Below are positions 1,501-31,036 of a stretch of 31,502 nucleotides of DNA, piece after piece. Positions within the stretch are counted from its first letter, which is position 1. Each line of letters starts with the position of its first letter. Position numbers and translations under genes: made by a program. The notes below the pieces were generated by a model. That model saw nothing but the letters and a program-made list of their open reading frames with translations. It was not told the origin of the DNA and made no database searches. This DNA comes from a candidate division KSB1 bacterium (GTDB lineage: Bacteria > Zhuqueibacterota > JdFR-76 > DREG01): assembly GCA_022566355.1 (NCBI GenBank), contig JADFJB010000052.1:1-31502 (forward strand). Direction: 5' to 3'.

Positions 1501-2355
1501 ATGAGTCCATCGATTGGTGTTGAAGGAAAAGAAAGAGGTTATATTGTCGCCGTTGGTGGCGCCGAAAAGCATTCTACTAAAGCCATAATTCTACAAAAGT
1601 TTACCGAATTAGCCAATTCAAATGGTGGTCAAATTGTGGTCATACCGACCGCCTCCGAAACCGAAGAAACCGGGCACCGATATATTAAAATCTTTAGCAA
1701 ACTAGGCGTTAGAAAAGAAGTGCTATCCATTCCCATTAAAACGAGATCGGATAGCGAGAAACCTGATTATGTTGAAAAGCTGGAAAGCGCTTCTGCCATT
1801 TTTATCACAGGTGGGAACCAGTTACGGTTGTCAACCGTCATGGGCGGCACTTCCGTTGCCCGATTAATTCGTAAATTAAATGCGGAAGGAGTTCATGTTG
1901 CGGGCACCTCGGCTGGTGCGGCTATTCTGTCCGAACATATGATCGCCGGTGGCGCAAGCGGGGCCACGCCGACGCCGGATGGTGTTACACTTGCGCCTGG
2001 TTTAGGTTTAACCAACAGCTTAATAATCGATCAGCATTTTCGCCAGCGAGATCGTTTGGGGCGCTTATTGGCTGCATTATCTTACAATCCCTTCATGTCC
2101 GGAATTGGTCTTGATGAGGACACTGCCATTTTCATAAATCCAAAAGGTGTTTTGGAAGTTGTTGGCAGTGGCGCGGTAACAATCATCGATCCAAGCAAAC
2201 TGAAATATTCATCGATGGGTTCCGTTCGCGCCGGACAACCGGTTAGCTTGATTGGCCTTCGTTTGCATATTCTAGCCAGCGGCGGACGGTATGATACTCA
2301 CTCACGTGAAGCGATCATCGATGATAAAAACGATAAACAAATTACTTCGAAATAA
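1501..2355 (+). CDS. cphB: Cyanophycinase
   Basis: Serine exopeptidase of family S51 that degrades cyanophycin to beta-Asp-Arg dipeptides; 284 aa, cytoplasmic, close to the family's usual length. Visible motifs are an early GYIVAVGGAE, the ITGGNQ loop (102-107), the nucleophile elbow GTSAGA with Ser137, DQHF with His179, and GLDEDTA with Glu206. The Ser-His-Glu spacing (42 and 27 residues) equals the spacing I recall for the characterised Synechocystis enzyme (Ser132/His174/Glu201). The start is the first ATG; the upstream AAGAAAAGAA is only a weak ribosome site. It is followed after 58 bp by cphA, the common pairing of degrading and synthesising enzyme. There is no signal peptide, so this is the intracellular type rather than the secreted type. 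Confidence 0.96.
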   Translation: MSPSIGVEGKERGYIVAVGGAEKHSTKAIILQKFTELANSNGGQIVVIPTASETEETGHRYIKIFSKLGVRKEVLSIPIKTRSDSEKPDYVEKLESASAIFITGGNQLRLSTVMGGTSVARLIRKLNAEGVHVAGTSAGAAILSEHMIAGGASGATPTPDGVTLAPGLGLTNSLIIDQHFRQRDRLGRLLAALSYNPFMSGIGLDEDTAIFINPKGVLEVVGSGAVTIIDPSKLKYSSMGSVRAGQPVSLIGLRLHILASGGRYDTHSREAIIDDKNDKQITSK

Positions 2356-2413
2356 TTCAGATGGGTTGACTAACTTTTCTTTTTGTAAAGGTAATTTTGC
2401 AGGAATTTAAGTT

Positions 2414-5209
2414 ATGAAAATATTATCAACAAATGTTTATTTAGGACCGAATCTTTACGCTCATTTTCCGGTGATCCGCCATGTTATTGATATTGGCATT
2501 TTGGAAGACTGGCCGACGAAACGACTTGGAAAAGAATTTATCGATGGCTTGCTGGAAAAACTGCCGGGTCTTCAGGAGCATGGCTGTTCCTATGGAGAAC
2601 CAGGTGGCTTCATACGGAGGATGACAGAAGATGAAGGAACCTGGCTCGGGCATGTTTGGGAGCACGTAATTATCGAATTACAAAACGAAGCTGGATCTGA
2701 TGTAACCTTTGGTAAAACTCGTTCAACGGAAATTTCCGGTCAATATAATATGGTATTCGAATATAAGCATCGTGAGGTTGGATTAGAAGCCAGTCGTCTC
2801 GGAAACCAATTGATAAACCATTTGCTGCCGGAGGATTTAAAGAAACAGTTCGAATCTGAAATTGATGCTGAATTTAATTTCGATGAAGACCGAGACGCTT
2901 TTATTCAATTTGCCCAGCGAAAAGAATTAGGGCCTAGCACCGCTTCTTTGGTTAAAGCAGCCATGGAACGAGATATCCCTTTTTTAAGGCTTAATAAATA
3001 TAGTTTGGTACAATTTGGTCACGGTAAATACCAGCGTAGAATACAGGCAACTGTAACCAGCGAAACGCGACACATCGCCGTCGAGATTGCTTGTGATAAA
3101 GAAGATACCCATAATTTGCTTAGCGACCTGGGATTACCGGTTCCCAAGCAGAGGTTAGTGTATAACGAAAGACAAGCTATTAGAGCTGCTTTGCATATCG
3201 GCTACCCGGTTGTGGTAAAACCATTGAATGCAAATCATGGACGAGGGGTCACAATCAATATTTCGGATGATGAAGAAGTAAAGACGGCTTTTACTGTTGC
3301 ACAGGACTTTGGCTCCAGCCGGTCCGTTGTGGTTGAAAGTTATATCACCGGATTTGATCATCGTATGCTGGTTGTTAATGCAAGGCTTGTGGCAGTATCA
3401 AAACGTGTTCCCGGCCATGTGGTGGGTGACGGCGTAAAAACAGTTACAGAATTAATCGATGAAGTAAATCAAGATCCAAGACGTGGTATAGGACATGAGA
3501 AGGTTCTAACCAAATTAAAATTCGATCAGCAGGCTGAACAGCTTTTGCAGGAAAAAGGCTATACAAAGGATACAATACTAAAAAAAGACGAGATTGTATA
3601 TTTGCGTTCAACAGCCAACCTGTCAACCGGTGGAACGGCAATAGATTTGACGGATGTGGTTCATCCGGATAATCGAGATATGGCTGTTCGCACAGTACAG
3701 GCAATCGGGCTCGATGTCGCCGGTGTAGATTTTTTGACCGATGATATTACACAATCGTATAAAGATATCGGCGGTGCAATAGTGGAAGTCAATGCAGCAC
3801 CGGGATTTCGCATGCATGTTGCACCCAGCGAAGGAAAACCACGAGATGTGGCGGGCCCAGTGATGGATATGCTGTTTCAGCCCGGTACTCCTGCAAGAAT
3901 CCCAATAGCCGCAATTACAGGCACAAATGGTAAAACTACTACCTCCAGGATGTTGGCCCATATTCTTAAAACCGCCGGACATGTAGTGGGAATGACCTCC
4001 AGCGATGGTGTTTATATCGATGGCCACCTTACTGTTAAAGGCGATATGACGGGTCCCATATCGGCACAGATGGTTTTACGTGATCCTTCTGTCGATATTG
4101 CCGTTATGGAAACTGCTCGTGGAGGTTTGCTTCGCGGCGGGATGGGATATCGTCGATGCAACGTAGCTGCCTGTCTGAATGTCACTGAAGATCATCTTGG
4201 TATCAAAGGAATTGACACCCTGGAACAGCTTGCTGAACTCAAGAGAATTGTGATCGAAGTGGCAAAAGACACTGCTATGTTAAATGCCGACGATCCTTTT
4301 TGTCTTAAAATGGCGGATTTTACCAAGGCAGAACATATTTGTTACGTAACCATGAATCCGGAACATGATTTAGTACGTGAACATATTCGATCTGGCGGCA
4401 GAGCCGTTGTTCTGGAAAAAGGCATTAACGGGGATATGATTACACTTTTTGACAACAATGCCCATATTCCCCTGTTGTGGACGCATTTAATTCCGGCAAC
4501 CATGGAAGGAATTGCAATTCACAATGTGCAAAATGCCATGTTTGCTGCCGGATTGGCTTATTTCCTGGGAAAATCCCTCGAAGATATTCGACATGGTTTG
4601 CGCACTTACTCCGCTTCTTTCTTTCAATCTCCAGGTCGAATGAATGTATTCGATGGCCATCCTTTTAAAGTCATTCTCGATTATGCCCACAATCCGGCGG
4701 CAATGGAAATAATGTGCCAGTTGGCAGATAAACTGGATACAAAAGGAAAAAAGATGTGCGTGCTTTCCGCTCCAGGCGACCGAAGGGATGAAGATATTCA
4801 GGAAATTGCCAGAATCGCTTCCAAACATTTTGATGAATTTATTTGTAAAGCGGATGACAATCGACGAAAAAGAGGCGCTGAAGAGGTGCCTAAAATGTTG
4901 CAGAAAACTCTCTTGGCAGAAGGTATAACTTCTGCGAATATTAAAATGATTCCGGATGAAGTCGAAGCTGTCGACAAGGCTCTACAGAGTGCCAGGCAAG
5001 ATGATCTTCTCATTATTTTTGGCGATGAAATCACCAGGTGCTGGAAGCAAATTATAAATTTTAATTCGGATGGAAATGTTGCAAAGCCTGGTTCTTCTGC
5101 AATATCTAAGGATCATCAAACTCCGGCGGAAGGATTCGTTATAGATAAAGACCAACGCCTGGTTCGTGATGATAGAGGCGTTCGTTTGGCAAAGGAAGAA
5201 GCCGATTGA
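2414..5209 (+). CDS. cphA: Cyanophycin synthetase (CphA1 type)
   Basis: ATP-dependent non-ribosomal synthesis of multi-L-arginyl-poly-L-aspartate, a cytoplasmic nitrogen reserve. The 931 aa show the full three-domain plan. The N-terminal CphA domain (about 1-160) starts KILSTNVYLGPNLYA. An ATP-grasp domain (about 220-490) has the KPLNANHGRGV glycine-rich loop and EVNAAPGFRMH as the metal-binding end; it adds Asp to the backbone. A Mur-ligase-like domain (about 495-885) with P-loop GTNGKTTT (503-510), TEDHLG and DYAHNP (756-761) adds Arg. The protein is somewhat longer than the roughly 870 aa of cyanobacterial CphA because of a C-terminal tail of about 50 residues ending in LVRDDRGVRLAKEEAD. 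AGGA lies 12 bases before the ATG. The last codon region overlaps the next gene by four bases. Confidence 0.97.
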   Translation: MKILSTNVYLGPNLYAHFPVIRHVIDIGILEDWPTKRLGKEFIDGLLEKLPGLQEHGCSYGEPGGFIRRMTEDEGTWLGHVWEHVIIELQNEAGSDVTFGKTRSTEISGQYNMVFEYKHREVGLEASRLGNQLINHLLPEDLKKQFESEIDAEFNFDEDRDAFIQFAQRKELGPSTASLVKAAMERDIPFLRLNKYSLVQFGHGKYQRRIQATVTSETRHIAVEIACDKEDTHNLLSDLGLPVPKQRLVYNERQAIRAALHIGYPVVVKPLNANHGRGVTINISDDEEVKTAFTVAQDFGSSRSVVVESYITGFDHRMLVVNARLVAVSKRVPGHVVGDGVKTVTELIDEVNQDPRRGIGHEKVLTKLKFDQQAEQLLQEKGYTKDTILKKDEIVYLRSTANLSTGGTAIDLTDVVHPDNRDMAVRTVQAIGLDVAGVDFLTDDITQSYKDIGGAIVEVNAAPGFRMHVAPSEGKPRDVAGPVMDMLFQPGTPARIPIAAITGTNGKTTTSRMLAHILKTAGHVVGMTSSDGVYIDGHLTVKGDMTGPISAQMVLRDPSVDIAVMETARGGLLRGGMGYRRCNVAACLNVTEDHLGIKGIDTLEQLAELKRIVIEVAKDTAMLNADDPFCLKMADFTKAEHICYVTMNPEHDLVREHIRSGGRAVVLEKGINGDMITLFDNNAHIPLLWTHLIPATMEGIAIHNVQNAMFAAGLAYFLGKSLEDIRHGLRTYSASFFQSPGRMNVFDGHPFKVILDYAHNPAAMEIMCQLADKLDTKGKKMCVLSAPGDRRDEDIQEIARIASKHFDEFICKADDNRRKRGAEEVPKMLQKTLLAEGITSANIKMIPDEVEAVDKALQSARQDDLLIIFGDEITRCWKQIINFNSDGNVAKPGSSAISKDHQTPAEGFVIDKDQRLVRDDRGVRLAKEEAD

Positions 5210-6915
5210 CCGAACCTGGTAAAAAGCTGGAAATTCAAGACAGCCGTCGTTTGACGGGTGCAAATTTGCTGTCCAATGAAGCGGGGGCAATTTTAGATGT
5301 AACCATTTCGGGTTATCCCATTGATGAAGTTGTCCATCTATGGCAACAACAGGCGCTTCATCTTCTTGAAGGTATTGGTTGGATTAAGGAACAGATATTT
5401 TTTCGTGTATTTAATCAAGGCGCCAGTCTCTCATTGAGTGCTCCTGTGGATGCACTTTACGCTGCCACAGAAGTGAATGAGGCGGCCTGGAATTCTGCGG
5501 TTGCTAATTTGCAGCGTGAGGATGTCGTTGATTATAATTTGACTGTAGATCAACTAAAAAAAACAATCGATGCAGAACAGAATCCTGATTTGATTCGGCT
5601 TATGGATGCGTCACAGGAAAGAGGTGTTTGCTTTTTATCGGATGATGAAACTGTCTCGATTGGAATGGGGATAGGTTCTAAAACATGGGAAGTGGATGAA
5701 ATACCGCATCCTGATAAAATCTCATGGCATAAAATTCATGACATTCCTTTGGCATTGGTAACCGGAACGAATGGAAAATCCACCACCGTCCGATTGCTGG
5801 CGTCCATGCTTAAATCAGCAGGGAAGATCGCTGGAATTACCTCGACAGACTATATCCGAGTCGGAGAGGAAATTATCGATTCAGGCGATTACTCTGGCCC
5901 CGGTGGGGCTCGCACGTTACTACGGGATGATCGTGTGGAAGTCGGCGTTTTGGAAGTCGCCCGCGGCGGAATTTTGCGACGAGGGTTAGGTGTTCCAAAA
6001 GCTGATACTGCTATCGTTACCAATGTAGCGGTCGACCATTTAGGACAATATGGCATCGACACATTAGATGATCTGATCCAGGCAAAACTGGTTGTCAATC
6101 GTTCTTTGAATTCAAATGGAAAATTAGTATTAAATGCTGATGATGAAGGAATAGTGCGACATGCTAAAACCGTTAAAACGCCGATCTGCTGGTTTAGTTT
6201 AGATGAGAATAATCCTGTAATTATAGATCATCTCAACAACGGCGGCTGTGTGTGTACTATTAAAGATAATCAAATGATCTATCAATCAATCAGTGGACAA
6301 GAAAAAATTGTCCCTATAAATAATATCCCTATTGCAATGAATGGCGCCTCTAAGCATAATACGGCCAATTGTCTCGGTGCTATTGGTCTTGCCAAATCGT
6401 TGCAAATAAACCGTTTTGCCATTGTAGAAGGATTAACATCATTCCGAGGTGATTTAAAGGACAACCCAGGCAGGGGTAATTTATTTGAAATCAATGGTGC
6501 CAAAATAATGATAGATTTTGCCCACAACGTTCATGGGATGTCGGCTATTGTGGATACAGTTTCATCCATACCTGCTCATCGACGCTTGTTGCTAATGGGG
6601 CAGGCTGGCGATCGTACTGATGAGGAAATTCGAGCATTAACCCAGATCGCATGGCAGATTCATCCGGATAGAATTGTCCTAACGGACCTTCCTGTTTACT
6701 TGCGAGGCCGGGAAGAAGGTGAAGTTCCAATGATCATACAAAAGGAGTTAATTCGTTTGGGATCGAGCGCTGCATCTATTATATTAACAAAAACCCCCCT
6801 GGATGGTGTAAAAGAAGCAATCGATTGGGCGCAGGAAGGCGACTTGTTACTTTTATTAATTTTAGCTCAGCGTAACGAAGTGTTTGAATATCTGAATAGT
6901 AGGTTAACAAATTAA
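5206..6915 (+). CDS. Mur-ligase-like CphA partner lacking ATP-grasp
   Basis: A 569-aa protein whose residues about 180-565 form a Mur-ligase fold resembling the C-terminal half of CphA: P-loop VTGTNGKST (185-193), LEVARGGILRRGLG (249-262), NVAVDHLG, and a DFAHN motif equivalent to DYAHN of CphA. Residues 1-180 are unlike the CphA N-domain and include GASLSLSAPVDALYAATEVN; there is no ATP-grasp. The start is TTG at 5206, inside the TGA stop of cphA (TTGA overlap), with AAGGAAGAAG just upstream, so translation is coupled to cphA. I recall unnamed Mur ligase family proteins of this type next to cphA in other phyla, but know of no assigned function. Plausible roles are an accessory ligase acting on cyanophycin, a dipeptide-recycling ligase, or a CphA partner subunit. 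Family assignment is firm; function is open. Confidence 0.85.
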   Translation: MTEPGKKLEIQDSRRLTGANLLSNEAGAILDVTISGYPIDEVVHLWQQQALHLLEGIGWIKEQIFFRVFNQGASLSLSAPVDALYAATEVNEAAWNSAVANLQREDVVDYNLTVDQLKKTIDAEQNPDLIRLMDASQERGVCFLSDDETVSIGMGIGSKTWEVDEIPHPDKISWHKIHDIPLALVTGTNGKSTTVRLLASMLKSAGKIAGITSTDYIRVGEEIIDSGDYSGPGGARTLLRDDRVEVGVLEVARGGILRRGLGVPKADTAIVTNVAVDHLGQYGIDTLDDLIQAKLVVNRSLNSNGKLVLNADDEGIVRHAKTVKTPICWFSLDENNPVIIDHLNNGGCVCTIKDNQMIYQSISGQEKIVPINNIPIAMNGASKHNTANCLGAIGLAKSLQINRFAIVEGLTSFRGDLKDNPGRGNLFEINGAKIMIDFAHNVHGMSAIVDTVSSIPAHRRLLLMGQAGDRTDEEIRALTQIAWQIHPDRIVLTDLPVYLRGREEGEVPMIIQKELIRLGSSAASIILTKTPLDGVKEAIDWAQEGDLLLLLILAQRNEVFEYLNSRLTN

Positions 6916-26764: not shown

Positions 26765-28009
26765 TTAAGGCATCAATAAAACTTTATGAATTCGCTCAAA
26801 AGCCCAGTCTAAATCTTCCTTTTTGATCACAAGGGGAGGCGCAAATCGGATCACATTTTCATGGGTTTCTTTGCACAACATGCCTTCATCCATTAAGGCT
26901 TCGCAAAACCTGCGTGCGCCACCGGCTTCATTATTCAATTCCACACCAATAAACAAGCCCTTGCCACGAACCTCTATGATGTGAGGACTATTTACTGTTT
27001 TTAATTTCTCCAGAAAATAGTCCCCTAACTCTTTGGAATTTTGCACCAGGTTTTCTTCCTGAATCACTAGAAGCGCTTCCCTTGCAACGGCACAGGCCAA
27101 CGGATTACCACCGAACGTACTGCCATGATCGCCCGGGTTAAATACGCCAAGGATTTCTTTCGAGGATGCAACGGCAGAAACCGGGTACATACCTCCGGAT
27201 AAGGCTTTGCCCAAAATAATCATATCCGGTTTAACATCTTCATGCTGGTGGGCAAACATTTTCCCGGTCCGACCAAACCCGGTCTGAATTTCATCTAATA
27301 CTAATAGAACATTGTTATGTCTGCATAAACTTTGGCATTCTTCCAGATAGCCACCTGGTGGGATCAGAACACCGCCTTCACCCTGGATCGGCTCAACCAT
27401 AAAGGCAACTGTGTTGGGTGTTATCGCCTGCTCCAGCGCCTGGGTGTCTCCAAAAGAAATGACAGAAAATCCCGGTGTAAACGGGCCAAATCCATCCTTG
27501 TATTGATCTTCTGTGGAGAATCCTACGATAGTGGTGGTGCGCCCATGAAAATTATTGTCACAAACAATAATCTCTGCTTGATTTGCAGGAACTCCCTTTT
27601 CCTGGTAGCCCCATTTTCTTGCGACTTTAATTGCGGTTTCAACAGCTTCGGCGCCGCTGTTCATTGGAAGCACCATTTCCATTTCACAAACTTCAGCGAG
27701 CTCCTTATAATAATAGCCAAGTTCACAGTTCCTGAATGCCCTGGATGTTAACGCTACTTTTTGCGCTTGGGTGATTAAAGCATTGACGATTCGAGGATGG
27801 CAATGGCCCTGGTTCACCGCCGAATAAGCGCTCAAAAAATCCAAATATTTTCTACCCTCAACATCGTAAACCCAGATCCCTTGGGCTCTTTCGATTACGA
27901 TATCGAGTGGGTGATAATTATGCGCCCCGTATTTTTCTTCAATTTCAATATAATCCTGTGTGGTTTTTCTGCTTGTTTTTGTTGCTTCTAAAACATCACT
28001 AATTGCCAT
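26765..28009 (-). CDS. rocD: Ornithine aminotransferase
   Basis: PLP-dependent class III transaminase (EC 2.6.1.13) converting ornithine and 2-oxoglutarate to glutamate-semialdehyde and glutamate; cytoplasmic, 414 aa, normal length. From the ATG at 28009: [12 protein letters not shown] (27-38) typical of OAT, NSGAEA (117-122), FHGRT (154-158), [12 protein letters not shown] with PLP-ring Asp239, and LGKALSGG with Schiff-base Lys268; STFGGNPLA follows. The upstream start at 28066 would add 19 basic residues; I prefer 28009, which has GGAAAAAAA before it and matches the family N-terminus. It is divergent from the cyclophilin-like gene. It could use ornithine derived from cyanophycin arginine, but no arginase or arginine-degrading gene is in the window. 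Confidence 0.93.
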
Positions 28010-28173
28010 TTTTTTTCCATTGTTTTTTCTGGTAGAGAAATTAATCAATTCTTTAAAAAAAGACAAGTCTCATTTGATTATATTATTCGGCCAATTTATT
28101 TTTTGTCTTGACTTTTGTTCTGGTTTGATTTTTAAACTTCTGCTGTTTATATTGTGCAAAACCAGGAGTTTCC

Positions 28174-30361: not shown

Positions 30362-31036
30362 ATGAGCATAAATATACGTCCAGCTAGTGAGTGGAAGTAT
30401 CCCGAGGGATGGCCACCAGAAGAATATTATGTCGCGAAACAGGAAGTAACTAGAGTACAATTGGATGGATTGAAGAATTTAGTTGATAACAATTCGCCAG
30501 AATCTGAGTTAGACTCTTACTTAGCAGCAAACCCTCAAGTGATGGCGCATTGTTTAACATTTCTGAATACTGGTCACCATGGTGCTTGGATAATTCCTCA
30601 GCAACAAATACGACCGCCCCAAAAATATGTCAGGTATGGACTTAGACCTGATTATATAATAGGAGGAAGAGATTCTGATGGATTTTTTTGGTATGTTTTG
30701 GAATTAAAAGGGGCAAATGAGAACATTTTTTCTGAAGAAAATGGAAGAGTATTTTTTTCCAAGACTACAAATAAAGCTATGTTTCAGTTGCTAGAATATA
30801 TAGATTATTGTTCTGAAACCCAGGCATACTTACGGGAAACACTTAACCTAACAAATTTTCGCGAACCTCAAGGAATTCTTATGATAGGTAGAGCTTCAGA
30901 AGTTGAACAGAATTCAAAGAAACAACGGATGAAGGCAGCGTGGAATAAGATTACTGCTGATAGAGTTGAATTGCGCACATATGATGCTTTAATAAGTGTT
31001 ATTGAGACAGAAGTTGATTATAAGGCGAAAAGATAA
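30362..31036 (+). CDS. Shedu-like (DUF4263) defence nuclease, short form
   Basis: A 224-aa soluble protein matching the Shedu effector SduA/DUF4263 pattern. SPESELDSYLAANPQVM (45-61) resembles the characteristic E-x-ELQ-x-FL-x-x-NP helix. RPDYII (95-100) with Asp97, FWYVLELKG with Glu114 and Lys116 give a PD-(D/E)xK nuclease core, and Gln142 in AMFQLLEYIDYC plus GILMIGRASEVE (171-182) complete the family signature. In Shedu, a single-gene anti-phage system, the nuclease acts on invading DNA. This protein is on the short side, with only about 45 residues before the core and no recognised sensor domain. There is no clear ribosome site before the ATG. Its position behind tRNA-Thr and eroded DNA fits a small mobile or defence island. 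Confidence 0.72.
   Translation: MSINIRPASEWKYPEGWPPEEYYVAKQEVTRVQLDGLKNLVDNNSPESELDSYLAANPQVMAHCLTFLNTGHHGAWIIPQQQIRPPQKYVRYGLRPDYIIGGRDSDGFFWYVLELKGANENIFSEENGRVFFSKTTNKAMFQLLEYIDYCSETQAYLRETLNLTNFREPQGILMIGRASEVEQNSKKQRMKAAWNKITADRVELRTYDALISVIETEVDYKAKR

Follow-up and report, generated by a model that had tools for sequence, protein, structure and literature searches.

A predicted CphA1 paralogue without the ATP-grasp domain is encoded behind cphA in one clade of cyanophycin synthetases

Why would a bacterium with a complete gene for CphA1, the synthetase of the nitrogen-storage polymer cyanophycin, encode a second Mur-ligase-like protein directly behind it? The question is raised by a 31,502-nt stretch of DNA (hereafter the window) from a candidate division KSB1 bacterium (GCA_022566355.1, contig JADFJB010000052.1). 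One operon on the forward strand, at positions 1501-6915, consists of cphB, a complete CphA1 gene and an ORF for a protein of 569 aa, hereafter the partner. Its features, numbered from the first letter of the window, are as follows.

1501-2355 (+): cphB, first gene of the operon, cyanophycinase of 284 aa (TIGR02069, 255.7 bits against a cut-off of 126.6; Pfam Peptidase_S51)
2414-5209 (+): cphA, complete CphA1 of 931 aa with N, G (ATP-grasp) and M domains (TIGR02068, 1154 bits, cut-off 850)
2651-2665 (+): HVWEH, the HxxEH metallopeptidase motif, residues 80-84 of the CphA1 N-domain, intact (sequence)
5159-5206 (+): conserved C-terminal tail of CphA1, LVRDDRGVRLAKEEAD, behind a variable linker, typical of the partner-bearing clade (alignment)
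5191-5198 (+): AAAGGAAG, Shine-Dalgarno-like, within the 3' end of cphA and ahead of the partner TTG (read from the sequence)
5206-5209 (+): TTGA, 4-nt overlap of the partner start TTG (5206-5208) with the cphA stop TGA (5207-5209) (sequence)
5206-6915 (+): partner gene, predicted G-domain-less CphA paralogue of 569 aa (ORF; AlphaFold model aligned to whole CphA1)
5206-5739 (+): N-terminal region of the partner, residues 1-178, predicted divergent CphA1 N-domain fold without HxxEH, then a G-domain stub (model)
5536-5673 (+): putative remnant of the start of the CphA G domain, partner residues 111-156 corresponding to CphA 158-205 (hhalign E 1.2e-4, probability 55 percent)
5740-6855 (+): M (MurE-like) ligase domain of the partner, catalytic residues kept (hhalign E 9.7e-88 to CphA1 M-domains)

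The window CphA matched all of the Pfam families Cyanophycin_syn, RimK/ATP-grasp, Mur_M and Mur_C. The overlap of the cphA TGA with the TTG of a 569-aa protein, described in the original prediction, was confirmed, and no start codon was found in frame between this TTG and the nearest stop upstream. The same prediction took the coupling to imply matched stoichiometry, which is not established: across homologous operons, the distance from the cphA stop to the nearest partner start has a median of 8 nt and ranges from -32 to +160 nt. The G+C content of the operon (0.43-0.46) is higher than that of the remaining window (0.37). At the far end of the window, positions 30362-31036 (+) encode a protein with the SduA C-terminal domain (Pfam PF14082, E 2.9e-12) of Shedu, a known anti-phage defence family.

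The cphB-cphA-partner arrangement is not due to chance, because it recurs across phyla. Scanning a genome collection gave 80 loci, spread over Alpha- and Gammaproteobacteria, Gemmatimonadota, Acidobacteriota, Myxococcales, Eisenbacteria and Chloroflexota. Four plasmids (Shinella, two Ruegeria, Roseateles) carry full-length orthologues, all behind cyanophycinase and cphA genes and annotated publicly only as 'Mur ligase family protein'. The three genes follow in the same order on one strand in nearly all of the 84 retrieved loci having upstream DNA, and the partner is intact in nearly all loci, accompanying one branch of CphA1 in at least seven phyla. The sole intact exception to adjacency (L066) has its cphA on another contig of the genome, and that CphA1 carries the tail of the clade.

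Among 298 Gemmatimonadota genomes, the partner was present in 46, of which 43 also have CphA, directly upstream in 42 of the 43 (Fisher p 6.6e-31); the other three hold two contig-edge fragments and one frameshifted copy. CphA without a partner was found in 24 genomes of this survey. In 369 Gammaproteobacteria, the partner stood beside 8/8 CphA1s of the window's clade versus 0/10 others, and in 390 Rhodobacterales beside 22/23 versus 0/12. Absences in these last two groups are less firm because two candidates were scored per genome; for three genomes (G1095, G1058, G300), scoring of all candidates confirmed the absence. On the CphA1 tree, presence of the partner amounted to one change against a shuffled mean of 19.7, and the exact split had 77 percent support. 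The partner is near-obligately associated with one CphA1 clade, which fits a single origin, and this association says that it is retained wherever a CphA1 of the clade is used. The idea that it is a partner of CphA, put forward from the sequence of the window, is strongly supported by the Gemmatimonadota counts. The search for homologues away from cphA came out in favour of pairing, since the few solitary ones are the edge fragments, the frameshifted copy and the case with CphA1 on another contig.

Neighbouring families found in at least 16 loci were iadA-like (25) and iaaA-like (16) genes for cyanophycin degradation, named by reading their sequences; as a clue to the substrate, nothing outside the cyanophycin genes recurs widely among the neighbours. 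Two Ruegeria plasmids carry saccharopine dehydrogenase-like and aldehyde dehydrogenase genes upstream of cphB (L022, L024), and one aldehyde dehydrogenase family is present in 8 loci. Such neighbours give a weak hint toward lysine. The viral contigs searched contained no relatives of the partner.

Within its own phylum, this genome is the only one of 82 sampled with an intact partner copy. A decayed remnant, 51 percent identical over 71 residues, was found in another genome of the phylum (G028, L003:1501-1982); this locus has frame breaks, an enolase gene nearby and weak CphA matches to the same M-domain stretch only. The CphA1 of the window is nearest to gammaproteobacterial CphA1s, with up to 70 percent identity, and this affinity together with the difference in G+C content points to horizontal gain of the operon. 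The mean pairwise distance was 1.65 for the partner versus 0.83 for CphA1, indicating that the partner evolves about twice as fast. Tree distances of the partner correlated with those of CphA (r 0.84) no better than with those of CphB (0.84), which therefore fits joint transfer of the operon and shows no special pairing. As for degradation, this genome seems to have the complete path from cyanophycin down to free amino acids because of two asparaginase_2-type (IaaA family) genes, though no IadA was found there above the cut-off. A class-III aminotransferase reading like ornithine aminotransferase is encoded at 26765-28066 (-) of the window; it could use arginine released from cyanophycin, but it lies 20 kb off.

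What kind of protein is the partner? Pfam matched Mur_ligase_M at residues 185-396 and Mur_ligase_C at 422-550, with no ATP-grasp match in the protein and no match of any kind in residues 1-180. Against TIGR02068, it scored 368.5 bits over residues 178-559 only, short of the whole-protein cut-off of 850, and 54 of 54 orthologues matched this model (best E 5e-120). An AlphaFold model built on the 54 orthologues reached a mean pLDDT of 94.9, and its best structural matches were CphA1 chains (Z 36-41). Approximately 551 of the 569 residues superposed on whole SuCphA1 (chain residues 1..872) at Z 36-39 and 27 percent identity, the ATP-grasp domain being skipped. The lack of ATP-grasp first read from the sequence thus holds in both the Pfam scan and the structural alignment. 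Because the model aligns to whole CphA1 with this domain skipped, the partner is, as predicted, a CphA1 paralogue with the G domain excised, composed of an N-domain, a G stub and an M-domain.

The N-terminal region was the part that the original prediction had called a different domain of 180 residues. Modelled alone (pLDDT 95.7), residues 1-180 matched best the CphA1 structure 7wae (chain residues 1..488; Z 12.7 over 162 residues, 14 percent identity), covering the CphA1 N-domain and the residues around 487, immediately before the M-domain. CphA2 came after CphA1 with Z 10.6, and unrelated folds reached Z 7.2 at most. Chains of CphA1 and CphA2 headed the fold list for this part, and MurE was absent among the matches listed, which does not exclude MurE. 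The predicted fold is that of a divergent CphA1 N-domain followed by both ends of the G domain; this match of the predicted structure ruled out that the N-domain is new or unrelated. Profile comparison over residues 1-120 was weak (hhalign E 0.08) and did not reveal the kinship with CphA1. The HxxEH motif is absent from the partner helix 81-102, where no His is conserved in the 54 partners, and the invariant residues of the N part in these orthologues are R14, R15, G18, R67, G72, D82 and L84.

Conservation of the M-domain was compared against 103 CphA1s, 84 from the partner-bearing set and 19 partner-less. The motifs GTNGKST, VARGGILRRG and DFAHN, already noticed in the partner, are present, and it retains the CphA1-conserved residues GTNGK (187-191), E250, R253, D277-H278, K294, N388, R423, D437, H440-N441, R500 and R502. 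The invariant positions shared by both proteins include the P-loop, the metal-binding Glu, ARGG, the DH pair, the MurE-type Lys, the PGR Arg, D-x-A-HN and the RGR arginines, with roles in ATP binding, metal binding and catalysis assigned by analogy. Residues of the catalytic type are invariant or nearly so across the 54 partners, which come from several phyla. The pair D277-H278 corresponds to D585-H586 of SuCphA1, the site of the mutation that inactivates the M site (PMC9262961). Because of the shared invariant residues, the M site of the partner is expected to be active.

The clearest difference in the M-domain is the lid loop, DDxxRGR in CphA1 versus ExxxYLRGR in the partner. We take this loop to correspond to the DNPR amino-acid loop of MurE. 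D814 of CphA1 is found in 107/111 CphA1s, and partners have mostly P, E or A at this position; their own loop conserves E/D494 (52/54), Y498 (52/54) and R500-G-R502 (54/54). In CphA1, the M site puts the Arg side chain on the polymer and requires a C-terminal Asp still without Arg (PMC9427784). Since the lid loop has been rebuilt, the amino acid added by the partner may differ from Arg, a suggestion and not a proof.

Could the partner make up for a damaged CphA1? HxxEH together with C58 forms the primer-making site of CphA1, and the Cx19HxxEH motif is present in about 83 percent of CphA1s (PMC9262961). The C, H, E and H of this site are identical in 88/88 partner-associated CphA1s. Compensation for a broken CphA1 was ruled out, as the paired CphA1s have kept their catalytic residues in both the N and the M domain. 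At their C-terminus, the CphA1s of the clade carry a variable linker and then a tail of the form (I/V)RDERGVRLA..E.D. The tail motif was found in 0/19 fetched partner-less Gemmatimonadota CphA1s, one of which (L119) has a short unrelated extension, and 15/15 partner-less plasmid CphA1s fail to align there. A sister CphA1 (L142, genome G1095) has the clade tail without a partner, and on reading this locus a second cyanophycinase-type protein apparently lies downstream. As a strict mark of the partner, the tail is weakened by L142; it marks the clade at least, and because of this same case it is no more than a candidate docking element.

The reading that we prefer, held with about even confidence, is that the partner is an accessory side-chain amino-acid ligase of the cyanophycin-synthetase family, acting with the adjacent CphA1 on the polymer. 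From its anatomy, it should be unable to extend the Asp backbone or to cut primers but capable of coupling an amino acid to a carboxylate. Conservation of the M active site makes a catalytic role the likelier one, and repolymerisation of the backbone is made less likely by the lack of a G domain. The partner would have arisen from a CphA1-like ancestor by loss of the ATP-grasp domain. The polymer would be held between its N and M domains, as in CphA1, ATP would activate a free polymer carboxylate, most likely the beta-carboxylate of the C-terminal Asp, and an amino acid would then be joined to the activated carboxylate. The partner could serve as a second side-chain station letting CphA1 keep up, or could add another amino acid instead of Arg, an option proposed because of the change from DDxxRGR to ExxxYLRGR. 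It might form a stable complex with CphA1, and our guess is that the conserved CphA1 tail would perhaps hold it. It is not obvious why a second M site would be needed, as the CphA1 encoded alongside brings intact N and M sites and an ATP-grasp domain of its own. We consider it rather unlikely that the whole clade practises a two-protein synthesis in which the partner, docked on CphA1, supplies the polymer with a different amino acid or a cap, yielding a chemically distinct cyanophycin.

A regulatory or otherwise non-catalytic subunit is a doubtful alternative. Hetero-oligomers of partner and CphA1 would tune assembly, primer cutting or granule attachment, and the M site would bind ATP or polymer and need not ligate. 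The near-obligate pairing with one CphA1 clade, the start overlap and short gaps, and the tail conserved in paired CphA1s are all compatible with such a subunit, as are the N and M domains in both proteins, from which hetero-oligomers could be built; the faster evolution of the partner would also fit. However, a purely structural role does not need the invariance of M catalytic residues seen in 54 partners, and the tail is shared with the partner-less L142.

It is unlikely that the partner is a salvage or primer ligase, making beta-Asp-Arg units from Asp and Arg (or from degradation products) to prime or feed CphA1, with the purpose of CphA2 but an M-type site. The active site of CphA2 sits in the ATP-grasp domain, exactly the one that the partner lacks. 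Joining Asp to Arg is M-type chemistry, and the partner is encoded alongside a cyanophycinase and often isoaspartyl dipeptidases, both in favour of this role. It also agrees with CphA1s being limited by slow primer formation (PMC9262961), yet primer-making HxxEH is kept in 88/88 paired CphA1s, so that an extra supply of primers is not obviously needed. In CphA2 itself, one active site carries out the repolymerisation of beta-Asp-Arg, and the N-domain motif is missing (PMC10206079, PMC9262961). The reading that the partner has no role in cyanophycin and is a cell-wall-type Mur ligase out of place or a duplicate in decay, to which the weak MurE-family score (TIGR01085, 105.7 bits) and the bare 'Mur ligase family protein' of public records might lead, is highly improbable for a protein that scores far higher (368.5 bits) with cyanophycin synthetase models, has CphA1s as its nearest folds, is intact in nearly all loci and is distributed with CphA1.

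No function for the partner was found in curated families, solved structures or open-access papers, and none of the homologues found is characterised as acting on an unrelated substrate. The text searched in a 2023 bioinformatic survey (PMC10206079) makes no mention of the partner. We file the partner as a new type of member in the cyanophycin-synthetase family, reduced in the opposite way to CphA2, while prior notice is possible. The literature presents cyanophycin as made by one enzyme (PMC9427784). A companion that one CphA1 clade has kept across at least seven phyla, and whose ligase site is predicted to be intact, suggests that CphA1 there normally has a second protein and that making or modifying the polymer takes two proteins in these bacteria and not one. 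This bears on the composition, chain length and yield of cyanophycin as well as on its engineered production, for which CphA1s are usually expressed alone.

Compared with known systems, the partner has in common with CphA1 (PDB 7lg5, 7lgq, 7wae; TIGR02068) the predicted N-domain fold, the M catalytic residues and stubs of both G-domain ends. It differs in lacking the ATP-grasp G domain, and with it the extension of the Asp backbone, in lacking HxxEH, in the lid loop (ExxxYLRGR for DDxxRGR) and in length (569 versus about 870-930 aa). We did not file it as CphA1 because ATP-grasp and the model cut-off were both tested, and the partner has no such domain and scores below the cut-off. CphA2 keeps its ATP-grasp domain and repolymerises beta-Asp-Arg, whereas the partner is the opposite case, with ATP-grasp gone and the M site intact. 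Both resemble each other as CphA1 paralogues of fewer activities, and the N-domain of CphA2 (PDB 7ta5, 8fxh) is also without HxxEH (PMC9262961). MurE belongs to the same ligase superfamily, and 2wtz (Z 27.1) was the top fold match outside the cyanophycin synthetases, near MurC and MurD; the listed fold matches for the N part of the partner are headed by CphA, and the MurE score of the protein is far under the cut-off of 257.3 bits.

A protein of Legionella adelaidensis (WP_058462805.1, 622 aa; plasmid locus L025:5530-7398) has, like the partner, N and M domains without ATP-grasp and adjoins a cyanophycinase; it also adjoins an isoaspartyl peptidase. Its N-domain, unlike that of the partner, has HxxEH and is recognised by Pfam Cyanophycin_syn. 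No CphA1 gene was found within the 13 kb read at this locus. This protein appears to have lost the G domain independently and is a second kind of G-less CphA, and the ATP-grasp domain seems to have been lost more than once. A third G-less CphA-like protein, of 614 aa, is encoded in a Gemmatimonadota genome (G302, L130:1922-3766) with an ordinary CphA on another contig; its N part is CphA-like by eye and has no Pfam match. Four Gammaproteobacteria (G600, G611, G494, G701) carry tandem CphA-like genes, a full one and a second of ~730-780 aa in which the G domain is partly retained. Such tandem pairs are another layout of CphA with a partner, distinct from the G-less partner described here.
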